From Neorhizobium alkalisoli (GTDB lineage Bacteria > Pseudomonadota > Alphaproteobacteria > Rhizobiales > Rhizobiaceae): a DNA stretch of 64,000 nt. The stretch spans positions 620,001-684,000 of the forward strand of contig NZ_VIWP01000002.1 in NCBI RefSeq assembly GCF_007829835.1. The letters are read 5' to 3'. The notes beneath the pieces were generated by a model. The model ran no database searches, was not told where the DNA came from, and worked only from the letters and a program-made list of their open reading frames with translations. Both the position numbers and the translations under genes were made by a program. Below are positions 27,481 through 32,119 of the stretch, piece by piece; within the stretch, counting starts at the first letter, position 1, and each line of letters begins with the position of its first letter.

Positions 27481-27789
27481 TCACTTGTCGGCCGGCAGAT
27501 CCTCGTCCTTTTCAAGATCCGGCGGCAGCTGGCGGCCATGGTGGATATGCGAGACGGCAAGGAACCGGCCGTCTACCCGGTAACGGATATGGTAATCGCC
27601 CGACACGAAATGACGTCGACCGGGGAGCGCAGGATCGTCGCTGCCCGCCTGCGGATATTCAGCGAGATGATGCAGCGATTTCCACAATTGCCGCATGACG
27701 TTTTCAGCAGCGCGGGGATTAAAATGCTCCAGATAACGCTGCTCGTTTTTCAAAAATTTCCCGGCATTTTTAGAAAGCCGGATCCGCAT
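27481..27789 (-). CDS. parE: ParE/RelE-superfamily toxin
   Basis: 102 residues. The fold signature is clear: an N-terminal helix pair (RLSKNAGKFLKNEQRYLEHF), LHHLAEYPQAGSDDPALPGRRHF and the core strand pair DYHIRYRVDGRFLAVSHIHHGRQ, where the arginines and the final HGR correspond to ParE toxins (gyrase poisons) or RelE relatives. The ATG at 27789 overlaps the antitoxin stop (TGATG), typical of coupled TA pairs. It lies inside the GTA cluster between the portal gene and the small membrane protein gene. Confidence 0.85.
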   Translation of the reverse strand: MRIRLSKNAGKFLKNEQRYLEHFNPRAAENVMRQLWKSLHHLAEYPQAGSDDPALPGRRHFVSGDYHIRYRVDGRFLAVSHIHHGRQLPPDLEKDEDLPADK

Positions 27790-28064
27790 CAGGCGGCATC
27801 GCTGTTTTTGGCGCCTGACTTCTCGCCCAGCAATTCGGCGAAAAATTCGTCGGCATCGACAAATTCACCATTGGCGATCTGCTCCTCGCCTTTGCGGATC
27901 TGCAGAATGTCGTTGCCCTCCGCCATCAGATAATATTTCAGCGCCCGCACGATCACCCAGGATCGGCTGCGCTCGGATGTTTCGGCGATCTTCTCGATAT
28001 CGTCCAGAATGTCCTGCGGCACACGCAGGGTGATCGGGTCGGAGAGAACGGGTTTGTCGGCCAT
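27789..28064 (-). CDS. RHH/CopG-type antitoxin
   Basis: 91 residues. Ribbon-helix-helix N-terminus (PITLRVPQDILDDIEKIAETSE, about 10-32; SRSWVIVRALKYYL helix, about 33-47) for DNA binding, and an acidic C-terminal tail (DADEFFAELLGE) expected to wrap the toxin. GGAGG precedes the ATG. A perfect inverted repeat just upstream is the probable operator, so the pair should be autoregulated. Confidence 0.87.
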   Translation of the reverse strand: MADKPVLSDPITLRVPQDILDDIEKIAETSERSRSWVIVRALKYYLMAEGNDILQIRKGEEQIANGEFVDADEFFAELLGEKSGAKNSDAA

Positions 28065-28132: not shown

Positions 28133-29308
28133 TCAATAGCCGACCGCCTCGCGCTTCTCCTCGTCGCTCAGGAACCCGGCCGCCCCGACGCGCGACCAGA
28201 GCGCCTCGCGCTCGGCGGCCAGGCCGGTGATGGCGTCCAGATCCGGCACCAGTTTCAGCGCACCGTCGAAAGCCCCGCCGAGCCAGGCGGAAAGGCTGGC
28301 GGCGGTGCGGGAGACGAGCGGCAGAACGGTCAGGCGATAGAAGGCGCGGTTGGCCTCCTGGTAATTGGCATAGGTATTGTCGCCGGGAATGCCGATCAGC
28401 ATGGGCGGCACGCCGATGCCGAGCGCAATGTCGCGGGCGGCCCCGTTCTTCGCCTCGATGAAATCCATGTCCTTCGGCGTCAGGCCCATCGATTTCCAGT
28501 CCAGCCCGCCTTCGAGCAGAAGCGGCCGTCCGGCATTGACGGCGCCGGCATAACCGGCCTCCAGCTCCGCCTTCAGCCGCTCATACTGGTCGGCGGACAG
28601 ATTGCCGCCATCCTTCGGCTGGTAGACCAGCGCGCCGGAAGGCCGGGCGGAATTGTCGAGCAAAGCCTTGTTCCAGGCCGAGGCGGCATTGGAGAGATCG
28701 AGTGCCGCACCGGCGGCACCGAGCGGCGAAAAACCGTAATGGTCGTCGAGCGGATGAAACAGTTTTAGATGCAGCAGAGACAGCCCGTCGCCATCGGCCG
28801 GCAGTCTTCGCGTGCCCTGCCCGGCGCGATAATCATAACCTGTCACCCAGCCGTCGCGACCCTCGACGACGCTGACACGATCAGGCCGCAAAAGATGCAA
28901 CTCGCGCAGGTTTTCGCCGATCGTCAGCGGCTCGACAAAGGCATTGCCGGAGAGAAGCAGGTGGCCATAAAGCGCTTCAAGGAAATCCGGGCCGCTCTGG
29001 CGTCCGTTCGGCCGGGCGATCAGCGCCAGAACCGGGTGATCCGCGGCCTCTTCCGTTCCGCGATAGGCAAGCAGCGGGACGGCCGCCGCGGCCTCCGCGA
29101 CCATGCGCATCGCCCGATAGGCAACCGGATTTCGCATGAAGCCGGCCCTTGCCAAAGCCGCATAGGAGCGGCCCGACCATTGCGCCACGCCTTCGGAGGC
29201 GACGATGGCGAAACCGGCGGAGAGTGCGGAGGCTCCCTTCTCCTCGATTGCGGTCGGGGAAGACTTGCCGCGCGATGAAAGCCAGGGCCGGAAAAATGAA
29301 CTGTTCAT
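28133..29308 (-). CDS. GTA gp3, portal protein
   Basis: 391 residues from MNSSFFRPWLSS at 29308; the open frame extends 51 codons upstream without resemblance. HK97-type portal features: RNPVAYRAMRMVAEAAAAVP near residue 60, NAFVEPL near 130, the DNSARPSGALVYQ stem region near 220, and IGIPGDNTYANYQEANRAFYRL near 315. It forms the dodecameric DNA entry ring. The downstream neighbour is a TA pair and upstream is a plus-strand small gene, so it is transcriptionally less tightly coupled than gp4-gp8. Confidence 0.93.
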   Translation of the reverse strand: MNSSFFRPWLSSRGKSSPTAIEEKGASALSAGFAIVASEGVAQWSGRSYAALARAGFMRNPVAYRAMRMVAEAAAAVPLLAYRGTEEAADHPVLALIARPNGRQSGPDFLEALYGHLLLSGNAFVEPLTIGENLRELHLLRPDRVSVVEGRDGWVTGYDYRAGQGTRRLPADGDGLSLLHLKLFHPLDDHYGFSPLGAAGAALDLSNAASAWNKALLDNSARPSGALVYQPKDGGNLSADQYERLKAELEAGYAGAVNAGRPLLLEGGLDWKSMGLTPKDMDFIEAKNGAARDIALGIGVPPMLIGIPGDNTYANYQEANRAFYRLTVLPLVSRTAASLSAWLGGAFDGALKLVPDLDAITGLAAEREALWSRVGAAGFLSDEEKREAVGY

Positions 29309-29525
29309 GCGAAGTCCTCGCGATTGGAGTCGGTGCTTTCGCAGATCCGGAATGGCTGCGTTCAGTCCGCCTGAGCATGCCGTTTGCGCTTCGAAACCTG
29401 CTTCCGGCCATCGCGGCGCGGCCATCGGCATTACTCCCGTGCCGCCTCTCACAAGTTTCAATCGGTTTAGAAAAACTAAATCGTTTTAAGCGTTTAAGGC
29501 GTCATTTACTTCTCGCGTCCGCTGT

Positions 29526-29550
29526 GGAACCAATTCGCTCAGACACCGTT
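29526..29550 (+). promoter_or_regulatory. EcfG (general stress response) promoter
   Basis: GGAAC at 29526-29530, 16-base spacer, CGTT at 29547-29550: an exact match to the GGAAC-N16/17-CGTT consensus of alphaproteobacterial EcfG/RpoE2 sigma factors. It drives the plus strand, with a start expected near 29557, about 40 bases before the small ORF that follows. No other exact match was seen in intergenic DNA of the window. Confidence 0.8.
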
Positions 29551-29598
29551 CATGTCGGCGCCGTTATGACGACGGCGGCACAACAGGAGATGACGACC

Positions 29599-29718
29599 AT
29601 GCAGCAGCCGACCCAGGCAGTTCCTTCCAAATCGATCCCGCAGCATGTCGTCGAGCGGATGGAATCCGAATGGAAGCAGATCCGCGAAAGCGCGCCGCCG
29701 CAGCCTGTTCGCCGCTGA
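29599..29718 (+). CDS. Small stress-controlled protein, unknown function, inside the GTA cluster
   Basis: 39 residues, glutamine-, proline- and glutamate-rich, with a central amphipathic helix (QHVVERMESEWKQIRES) and a PPQPVRR tail; no signal or membrane segment. AGGAG at 29585-29589 is nine bases before the ATG. The gene is on the strand opposite to gp2 and gp3 and has a consensus EcfG promoter. I do not recognise the protein. A strong imperfect hairpin follows its stop. Confidence 0.7.
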   Translation: MQQPTQAVPSKSIPQHVVERMESEWKQIRESAPPQPVRR

Positions 29719-29725
29719 TTTTTGA

Positions 29726-29761
29726 CAGGGCGCGATGATGTCAACTTCATCGCCTGCCCTG
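29726..29761 (+). terminator. Hairpin after the EcfG-controlled small gene
   Basis: Arms CAGGGC-GCGATGA (29726-29738) and TCATCGC-CT-GCCCTG (29747-29761) with an 8-base loop: 13 pairs with a 2-base bulge. It lies eight bases after the stop and 12 bases before the gp2 stop, so it could end transcripts from both sides. No U-tract, so it is not a classical intrinsic terminator. Confidence 0.5.
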
Positions 29762-29772
29762 AAGGACACGGT

Positions 29773-31089
29773 TCAAATGCCGCGCACCCGCGGCTCTCCC
29801 TGCCCTTCTAGAACAAGCGCCGTCAAAGCCCAGACCAGCGCATCGAGCCGGTCGGGCGATCGGCCTGACGAAAGCCCATCCGGGCCGAAATCACACATCT
29901 GATCCTCGAGCTCGGTAAACCGGGCGGCATGTGCCACCCTTCCCTGCTCGTAGAGCGCCGCCACGGGCTCGGCGCGTAAAAACTTTCCCCTTGTCGCGCG
30001 CACCATCGTCACCGGCAGGTTGGCATCGATGCTTTTCAGCATGGCCGAGACCATCTCGCCGCCCTGGTTGACCTCGGCGACGATCCTGTCCGCATTGAAA
30101 CGCTGAAACGCCCTGACGACCGCCTGCGCCCAGCCGGCCGGGCTTTTTCCCTCTACCGAACAGTCCGACAGCACGACGGCGCGCCCGCCGGCCTCCAGGC
30201 CGGCGACGACAATGCCGCAGCAGGAAGAAGCCGCCGAACCGGACGGCGGATCGACGGCGACGACGATGCGCCTCAGACCCGAGGTAAACCGCGTCGTTAC
30301 CGCCTCGATCTCGGCGCGCTTCCAGAGCGCATCCTCGCGGTCCTCGATCAGCTCGCCATCCAGCTCCTGTCGCCCAAGCCGCGTGCCGCCATAGCGCGCC
30401 TGAAGCGCTGCGATAAAGCCGGGCGCCAGATTGCCGGCATTCGCGCCGGTCGAAATCCGCGTCAGATGCGTGCCGGGATCGGCGATCAGCCGTTTCAGCA
30501 CCGGCACCGGCCGCGGCGTCGTGGTCACCAGCTGGCGCGGATCGTCACCGAGCCGCAGGCCGAATTGCAGCATGTCAAAAGTTTCCGCCGCGTGTTTCCA
30601 CTTGGCGAGCTCGTCGCACCAGGCGAAATGAAATTGCGGCCCGCGCAGCGCTTCGGGATCCTCGGAGGAAAAGATCTGCGCCATCGCACCGCTCGGCCAG
30701 ATCAGCCTTCGCCGCGAAATCTCGAAATCCGGCACGTTTTTGCGGGCAATCCGGCAGATGCCGGAGACTCCATCGATCATCACTTCGCGGGCATCACCCA
30801 GTGTTTCGGCGACAAGTGCAATGCGCAGGTCCGAGCGTTTCGAAGCACTCGCCAGCGCCTGCACCCATTCGGCACCAGCCCGCGTCTTGCCGGAACCGCG
30901 GCCGCCGATGACAAGCCAGGTCCGCCAGTCGCCCTTCGGTGGGTGCTGGTCGGGACGGCCGATGAAGCGCCAGTCGCGGGCGGAGCGGATGGAAAAATCC
31001 GCCGGAAAGTGTTGGCCGTCGATGACGATATCGGCGGGGCGGCTGTCTCCTGCAACAACAAGAGCTTGTGGCATCTGCAAACTCGGCAT
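29773..31089 (-). CDS. GTA gp2, large terminase subunit (packaging ATPase/nuclease)
   Basis: About 438 residues if it starts at MPSLQMPQ (31089). Walker A GGRGSGKTRAG (near residue 60), Walker B-like HFAWCDELAKW (near 160), the coupling motif TTTPRPVPVLKRL, and nuclease-domain acidic residues (VAVDPPSGSAASS near 285; VAEVNQGGEM near 345; DRLDALVWALTAL at the end). It packages DNA head-full into the GTA capsid. The start is uncertain: the frame is open to 31689 and runs in frame through a palindromic repeat at 31179-31312, so candidates at 31200 or 31584 cannot be excluded. The 31089 start lacks a good ribosome binding site but leaves normal length. Confidence 0.88.
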   Translation of the reverse strand: MPSLQMPQALVVAGDSRPADIVIDGQHFPADFSIRSARDWRFIGRPDQHPPKGDWRTWLVIGGRGSGKTRAGAEWVQALASASKRSDLRIALVAETLGDAREVMIDGVSGICRIARKNVPDFEISRRRLIWPSGAMAQIFSSEDPEALRGPQFHFAWCDELAKWKHAAETFDMLQFGLRLGDDPRQLVTTTPRPVPVLKRLIADPGTHLTRISTGANAGNLAPGFIAALQARYGGTRLGRQELDGELIEDREDALWKRAEIEAVTTRFTSGLRRIVVAVDPPSGSAASSCCGIVVAGLEAGGRAVVLSDCSVEGKSPAGWAQAVVRAFQRFNADRIVAEVNQGGEMVSAMLKSIDANLPVTMVRATRGKFLRAEPVAALYEQGRVAHAARFTELEDQMCDFGPDGLSSGRSPDRLDALVWALTALVLEGQGEPRVRGI

Positions 31090-31178
31090 TTCTGCCGGCA
31101 CGGCGTGATGGTCGGAAAGCGGAGGATCTGCAGGATCAATCTCCGACGTTGAGGCAGAGTTATCGCATATAGCCAAAA

Positions 31179-31312
31179 CCCTCTCTGGCCTGCCGGCCAT
31201 CTCCCCCACAAGGGGGGAGAAGACTCGCGGCGCTCGCCCACTCAAATCCACGCCAGGCAGATCGATTGGGTTAATCCCTCCCCCTTGTGGGGAGGGGTCT
31301 TTATCCACCCTC
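31179..31312. repeat. Palindromic repeat, second family, copy 1, upstream part of the gp2 frame
   Basis: Contains CCGGCCATCTCCCCCACAAGG at one end and CCCTCCCCCTTGTGGGGAGGG at the other, the two halves being inverted to each other. Related copies are at 46409 and 56469. It does not interrupt the gp2 reading frame and encodes SPQGGGINP..FSPLVGEMAGRPERV in that frame, a peptide signature that appears whenever this repeat is translated. Confidence 0.8.
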
Positions 31313-31486
31313 GTGATGCTCCCCACGCGTCCGAGAATTCCATCGACACCGGCCGTCGGAAGCACAGCCATTGCGTATTCGCCTTCATGCCATGCGTTGA
31401 TCCCGTCCATCATCGTTCCGTAAGAACCGATGATCTCATCTTTCAAAGTCAGTTTCGGCCGCAGGATCGAAGCCTCGGCACGCCGC

Positions 31487-32119
31487 TCATGCCGTGCCGG
31501 CCGGTGGTCCAGTGCCGGCAATAACAGCGGCAGGCGGAGATGCGGATAACCCGGCAGAAGCTGCGGCGCTGCCCGGATCGTCATCCCGTTTCCCATCCCG
31601 CTTCCATGCCTCGAAAAGCAATCTTGCCTGTTCATCCGCCTTGACCCTGATGAGCTGCAGCAAGCGTTCCCGCGCATCCTCGTAAGCATCGCGATCGGCG
31701 GATGCTTCCGCTTCCTCGCGGCGGTCGCGGGCGAGCTGACGCTGCAGGCTGTCGATCTTTTCCAGCGTGCGGACGATCAGCGACATGGCGTCGGTCGCCG
31801 CCTTCACATCGGCACGGGCAAGTTTTTGCGCCGCGTCGTCGCCATCGGCGAGTTCCCCTTCGGCAGCGCGGCGCATGTCGCGAAAGGTTTTGAACTGCGC
31901 CTGCATCTCCTCGGTCATCTGGTTCAGGAGAAGCCGCAGGGTTTCCGTGGGCGAAACGGTGTCCTCGCCGGACTTGGTTTCGAGAAACATGCCACGCAGC
32001 TCCGCCGGCATCTCCTCGGAGGCCGGATCGCCATAGGTCGGCGCCTCCCGCCAGATGCCGAACAGGTTCGGATCGAAATGATCGAAATCGTCCGTGTCGT
32101 CATCCATGTCACGCTGCAT
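31487..32119 (-). CDS. GTA gp1, small terminase subunit
   Basis: 210 residues, first gene of the cluster. Acidic N-terminus (MQRDMDDDTDDFDHFDP), then a mostly helical, charged middle (MTEEMQAQFKTFRDMRRAAEG, SLIVRTLEKIDSLQRQLARDRRE) resembling a terminase oligomerisation coiled coil, and an alanine/proline-rich tail. Gene position before gp2 fits gp1, which acts as small terminase in the Rhodobacter GTA. It is roughly twice the Rhodobacter length, and sequence resemblance is weak by eye, so the role rests mainly on place. GGGAG seven bases upstream supports the 32119 start. Confidence 0.72.
   Translation of the reverse strand: MQRDMDDDTDDFDHFDPNLFGIWREAPTYGDPASEEMPAELRGMFLETKSGEDTVSPTETLRLLLNQMTEEMQAQFKTFRDMRRAAEGELADGDDAAQKLARADVKAATDAMSLIVRTLEKIDSLQRQLARDRREEAEASADRDAYEDARERLLQLIRVKADEQARLLFEAWKRDGKRDDDPGSAAASAGLSASPPAAVIAGTGPPAGTA

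Follow-up and report, generated by a model that had tools for sequence, protein, structure and literature searches.

In the 64,000-nucleotide stretch of Neorhizobium alkalisoli DNA analysed here (the window), a GTA cluster carries at 29526-29718, on the strand opposite to its own genes, a promoter of the EcfG type and a genuine small gene, an assignment that is well supported by comparison with related genomes. The gene and its promoter are kept by selection and can outlast the virus-derived genes around them and, thus, the small gene looks like a host-serving passenger. It is probably a moron-like, independent transcription unit inside the GTA cluster, whose product would be a helical peptide made under stress. 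Phage morons have their own promoter and terminator, often lie on the opposite strand, are expressed from the prophage and help the host. The features discussed below are the following:

28133-29308 (-): GTA gp3, portal protein (PF04860)
29460-29486 (no strand given): direct repeat AATCG.TT, two boxes with a period of 19, AATCGGTTTAGAAAAACTAAATCGTTT
29505-29509 (+): TTTAC between the repeat and GGAAC, consensus at >=90% in the genus
29526-29550 (+): EcfG-type promoter, assigned by conservation, with GGAAC at 29526-29530, N16, and CGTT at 29547-29550, GGAACCAATTCGCTCAGACACCGTT
29585-29589 (+): ribosome binding site AGGAG, nine bases from the ATG
29599-29718 (+): gene for the 39-residue small protein, ATG to stop, core IPxxxxxRxExEWxxxR
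29726-29761 (+): hairpin in the gap between the small gene and the terminase gene, which converge (fold 29715-29775)
29773-31689 (-): GTA gp2, terminase large subunit (PF03237, PF17289), whose true start may lie further in

The promoter and the small gene

The motif GGAAC-N16-CGTT announced by the original prediction is present at 29526-29550 on the plus strand, with a spacer of 16 that fits the GGAAC-N16/17-CGTT promoter of the sigma EcfG regulon; the available part of PMC3892343 gives GGAAC-N16-CGTT as the motif of R. etli sigma EcfG1. The exactness of the match, which had been put forward as an argument, does not by itself raise it above chance. The window holds 3 such motifs at spacings of 15-18 against 2.05 expected, and the whole genome (7.03 Mb) holds 118 sites at spacings of 16-17, fewer than the 146 of the reversed control pattern, so that the exact motif, being as frequent as the background in both, is no evidence on its own. 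The same frequency problem arises in NT-26, where a looser motif lies upstream of 469 genes (PMC6011840, available part).

Conservation across 57 genomes is what lifts the motif at 29526 above chance. TGGAACC precedes the gene in all 57 genomes of the genus and is followed, 16 or 17 bases after GGAAC, by NGTT, which reads CGTT in 50 genomes, AGTT in four and TGTT in three; the spacing is 16 in 52 of them and 17 in five, and such a one-base shift with both boxes kept is as expected for a two-box promoter. Among the 46 distinct N16 sites, mean pairwise identity is 0.98 over the nine box bases versus 0.40 over the 13 inner spacer bases. These 57 genomes are related by descent and do not represent 57 independent events, and the motif is kept in front of orthologues throughout the genus but not in every related genus.

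The 39-codon reading frame described by the original prediction, with AGGAG nine bases ahead and on the strand opposite to the GTA genes, is confirmed at 29599-29718, and a purine-rich ribosome binding site occupies a similar place in the relatives compared. In a translated search the protein turns up in 57/57 genomes of the genus, with a best E of 1.7e-6 or lower in each; members of the genus with this protein comprise species of Neorhizobium, Pseudorhizobium, Xaviernesmea and Rhizobium, among others. Over a 20-codon core, differences at codon positions 1, 2 and 3 amount to 0.151, 0.105 and 0.413 (55 distinct sequences of the 57), and the median dN/dS is 0.19 (1326 usable of 1485 pairs), a pattern indicating that the frame evolves as coding DNA under selection at the protein level. 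In one genome, G039 (locus L063), a change of frame separates the start region from the core, which implies a frameshift or an assembly error. That a chance motif match merely precedes a spurious reading frame is hardly credible: the background frequency of the motif would allow it, but the presence of the protein in every genome, the conserved boxes and the coding-type evolution contradict it. Comparison thus bears out the EcfG promoter and the real small gene of the original prediction (57/57 genomes, dN/dS about 0.19), and not the coupling of GTA activity to stress that was also proposed.

The protein belongs to no family that these searches recognise: neither Pfam at E<=10 (where HMMER filters drop most matches above 0.1) nor NCBIfam at E<=1 gave a match to the protein of the window or to the two or three relatives searched with it. 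In the AlphaFold2 model (mean pLDDT 74.7, pTM 0.37), residues 15-31 form a single helix, and one predicted helix of this kind says little about the function of a 39-residue peptide. Several other identities were considered and set aside. A structured RNA was rejected, given that Rfam at E<=1 yields no match in 29300-29850 and that the codon pattern favours a protein. The protein resembles NepR in an IP-x-x-h pattern, by eye only, and was rejected as a NepR mimic since, unlike NepR, it has no match to PF18557 in Pfam at E<=10; in this genome PF18557 matches at one place only, the nepR gene. Two other matches to the small protein in its own genome (E 0.49 and 0.82) were dismissed as too weak to be paralogues. 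An origin as a phage or plasmid gene was rejected on the grounds that tblastn at E<=0.1 finds no match to the protein in either set. In IMG/VR, 31 contigs carry the small protein, 26 of them 16-25 kb long, and these are taken to be GTA regions labelled as viral. Separately, L046 and L047 (genomes G022 and G023) contain paralogues with IPQHxFERLEREWRLM in loci that hold none of the searched GTA genes; they share a stretch ACCATGC.CGCTAAGGTTA upstream and have no EcfG box.

The upstream repeat and the distribution of the gene

A second conserved element, overlooked by the original prediction, lies upstream of the promoter at 29460-29486. This AATCG.TT repeat has one site in its own genome, with none for the reversed control, and the pattern occurs in all 57 genomes of the genus (eight with one or two further sites elsewhere), the reversed control matching in 2/57. 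Its distance to GGAAC is 66 bp in 43 genomes and 67 bp in the remaining 14, and a 27-mer identical to the repeat of the window is found in 28. Together with TTTAC it makes up a conserved block of about 50 bp (29460-29509). The repeat is probably the target of a regulator providing a second input, and TTTAC could perhaps be the -35 box of a second promoter; a scan of the window finds no sigma-70 site. Of the known motifs compared with the repeat by eye (Irr, NolR, CtrA, dif), none is a good fit.

Beyond the genus, the small protein is matched in at least 47 of 297 genomes and at least 17 of 109 genera of the family, in a search that scored the best 25 candidates per genome and in which absence is, consequently, weak evidence. 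The same reading applies to the order-wide search, which scored the best 18 candidates per genome and gave matches in at least 14 of 397 genomes, namely three of the genus, five of g30 and six outside the family (best E among these 3.2e-5). Outside the genus, 39 of the 42 genomes with a match were compared (40 regions), leaving aside the weak matches G201, G233 and G315. Twenty-two loci in seven other genera adjoin GTA genes, and in 21 of them the small gene lies antiparallel between terL and portal, the exception being L137, where terL was not found. GGAAC-N16/17-NGTT occurs in 20 of these 22 loci (CGTT in 12). In g30, g46 and g71 the copy compared has the repeat, and an EcfG box is present in 0/12 loci; its absence from these 12 and from two of the GTA-linked loci indicates that EcfG control is not universal. 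The six distant relatives L161-L166 have none of the searched GTA genes nearby; GGAAC-N16/17-CGTT is present in L161, L163 and L164 and absent in L162, L165 and L166, and L164 also carries an AATCG repeat.

A similar repeat is present in 34/34 loci of other genera (L127-L160), a count that allows AACCGATT or AAACGATT as one or both boxes in L134, L144 and L160, and TTTAC follows within 45 bp in all of them except L133 (33/34). In g10, g94 and g103, all ten genomes compared have two tandem copies of the small gene: the repeat, with no EcfG box, accompanies the first, and the EcfG box (CGTT in nine, TGTT in one), with no repeat, the second. Such tandem duplicates with divided control, seen at L134, L136, L137, L138, L148, L152, L153, L154, L157 and L160, suggest that the two inputs are separable.

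It is conceivable, though the less probable view, that the repeat and a non-EcfG promoter are the main control and the EcfG box a secondary one, gained or lost by lineage. The constancy of the repeat (57/57 in the genus and 34/34 elsewhere), the missing EcfG boxes of g30, g46 and g71 and the TTTAC after the repeat in 33/34 loci are in line with this, and one operon of Rhizobium sp. NT-26 with dual RpoD/RpoE2 promoters offers a precedent (PMC6011840, available part). However, the scan of the window gives no sigma-70 site and, within this genus, the repeat and the EcfG boxes vary about equally little.

The GTA context and what survives its loss

The position between GTA gp2 and gp3 given by the original prediction is confirmed by the terminase (PF03237/PF17289) and portal (PF04860) domains. 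The cluster is of the RcGTA type and runs on the minus strand, with terminase, portal, protease, capsid, head completion (Phage_HCP) and tail proteins, and DUF2460, NlpC/P60 and GTA_TIM proteins as further members. The flanking genes, among them terL, portal, protease, capsid and GTA_TIM, are thus those of the RcGTA structural cluster; unlike these, the small gene lies on the other strand and can survive the loss of the cluster. It is antiparallel between terL and portal in 55/57 genomes of the genus (the window and 54/56 relatives), and in the two exceptions, L068 and L089, the portal was not found and terL is in pieces. Several other genes occupy this region. Between the GTA portal and protease, at 27481-28064 (-), there is a toxin-antitoxin-like pair of ribbon-helix-helix and ParE type (PF01402, PF05016), and a relative of its ribbon-helix-helix protein is found between portal and protease in 36/56 loci of the genus. 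A lysin-like gene sits between the small gene and portal in L083 (8273-8881), L079 (8273-8887), L078 (8279-8887) and L061 (10156-10908), together with other small genes in relatives, one of them DABB-like in L083, L079 and L069 (family names assigned by eye). The GTA lysin of the relatives was not found in the genome of the window, in a search that had no known match as a control and is weak for this reason.

The small gene and the terminase gene are convergent, with their stops 54 bases apart, and the strong hairpin reported by the original prediction between them is real (29726-29761; -23.6 kcal/mol and z -3.87 for 29715-29775). It is followed by no T run on either strand, and a scan of 29300-29900 finds no intrinsic terminator. 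In the genus, the fold after the reading frame has z below -2 in 30/57 genomes, and T-run hairpins are seen by eye in the relatives L039, L049, L050, L053, L055, L090 and L091. A conserved terminator was rejected as a description of the hairpin, since its sequence is not conserved and a T run is found in some relatives only. As the hairpin of the window lacks a T run, read-through toward the terminase gene may occur.

The gene also persists where the GTA is broken or gone. No full-length capsid match is found in 12/56 loci of relatives, ten having none, L089 a match of 31 residues and L065 one of 227 residues. A genome-wide search for the capsid covered 11 of these 12 genomes (all except G032, which holds L065); G046 and G049 have a GTA-type capsid elsewhere, and in the other nine no intact GTA-type capsid gene was found. 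Of these nine, G040 has only a 35-residue capsid piece and a 42% relative, G019 only a 35% relative, and G013, G020, G024, G036, G044, G050 and G051 have no capsid match at E<=1e-5. They are mostly drafts, so a missing contig is possible in each case. All nine keep the reading frame and an exact GGAAC-N16/17-CGTT, and in several of them only pieces of terL or portal are left next to the small gene; some of these genomes may have lost the GTA recently. The gene is likewise kept in all 12 genomes of g30, g46 and g71, where capsid relatives are absent or distant (27-32%) and where, at L155, remnants of terL and portal adjoin it. A GTA structural gene would be lost together with its cluster, which the small gene is not.

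These observations bear on three ways in which the gene might serve or affect the GTA itself. The original prediction held that a general stress regulon member at this place could couple GTA activity to stress, that is, that EcfG transcription toward the terminase gene lowers GTA expression through antisense RNA or collision. The convergent arrangement with stops 54 bases apart, no intrinsic terminator found in the window and a position kept in 55/57 genomes would suit such an effect, which is nonetheless improbable and is not supported here. There is no overlap with a GTA gene in the absence of read-through, the reading frame is under selection at the protein level, T-run hairpins follow it in some relatives (by eye), and gene and promoter persist in the nine genomes in which no intact GTA capsid was found, while the related genera keep the gene with no close capsid. 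Moreover, according to the available part of PMC3999984, RcGTA activity stays at the wild-type level in R. capsulatus mutants disrupted in a phyR orthologue or in an EcfG-like factor. The reverse interference, of the GTA message onto the small gene, seems at least as likely: a GTA message starting at gp1, if single, would run antisense through the small gene, and the GTA could then silence the stress gene.

A role of the small protein in the GTA life cycle under stress control, in packaging or in protecting non-producers or recipients, is also unlikely, if slightly less so than the coupling. The place between terL and portal, kept in the genus and in 21/22 GTA-linked loci of seven other genera, speaks for it; against it, the gene is kept in the nine genomes of the genus in which no intact capsid was found and in the 12 of other genera with no close one, and at the distant relatives L161-L166 no GTA gene was found among those searched. 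More doubtful still is a fate switch, in which GTA transcription, leading to lysis, would run antisense through the gene and meet EcfG transcription head-on, so that a cell would take either the GTA or survival by the stress peptide; the small gene would outlive the GTA in that case because the peptide has a host role.

The host-serving, moron-like unit, which remains the preferred reading, is an independent unit antiparallel to the flanking phage-type genes, has a promoter of its own (as judged by conservation) and is retained as its neighbours decay, all of which recall phage morons. It differs from them in that its carrier is a GTA and not a phage, it sits at the same place in several genera, its terminator is ambiguous in the window and its benefit to the host is inferred. 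Among the literature titles and opening lines of abstracts listed, a partial coverage, none describes a GTA with a stress-regulated or moron-like gene, and the available parts of the GTA papers make no mention of such an opposite-strand small gene.

Host stress regulators and the proposed role of the gene

The host encodes PhyR, NepR and an ECF sigma factor, as identified by family models. NepR (PF18557, 5.9e-15) is found within 8 kb of contig C5, directly followed by an ECF sigma factor gene (NF009169, 6.2e-107, above cut-off) and accompanied by a diverging gene of the PhyR family (NF006623, 2.2e-117, above cut-off). NF009169 is named only 'RNA polymerase sigma factor', and this factor is called EcfG on account of its place after nepR. 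The 8 kb that hold these three genes contain four GGAAC-N16-CGTT sites. One such site, at position 3038 of L228 (-), lies just downstream of the PhyR gene and is perhaps comparable to the ReC64 ncRNA promoter of R. etli (PMC3892343, available part). The nearest known system is the alphaproteobacterial general stress regulon (PhyR-NepR-sigma EcfG), with R. etli sigma EcfG1 as an example: the promoter motif is shared, and PhyR, NepR and an ECF sigma factor are grouped in the genome of the window. What sets the small-gene unit apart is its place within a GTA and the additional repeat upstream, and EcfG control is here predicted.

In the mechanism proposed, PhyR would capture NepR and release sigma EcfG, which would start transcription near 29557 and give a short mRNA; EcfG dependence and this start point are inferred from the promoter. 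Its translation would yield the 39-residue peptide, whose one predicted helix spans about residues 15-31; most probably the peptide docks this helix on a partner protein and thereby acts in the stress or stationary-phase physiology of the host, not in GTA assembly. A regulator bound to the upstream AATCG repeat would provide the second input.

If so, GTA clusters, which are usually regarded as fixed sets of genes of phage origin, can house a passenger gene under separate control, and such a gene may be kept by selection after the GTA is gone. These results also suggest the addition of a small-protein family of the Rhizobiaceae to the likely general stress regulon, under one promoter with two conserved inputs, of which the AATCG repeat is single-copy in this genome.
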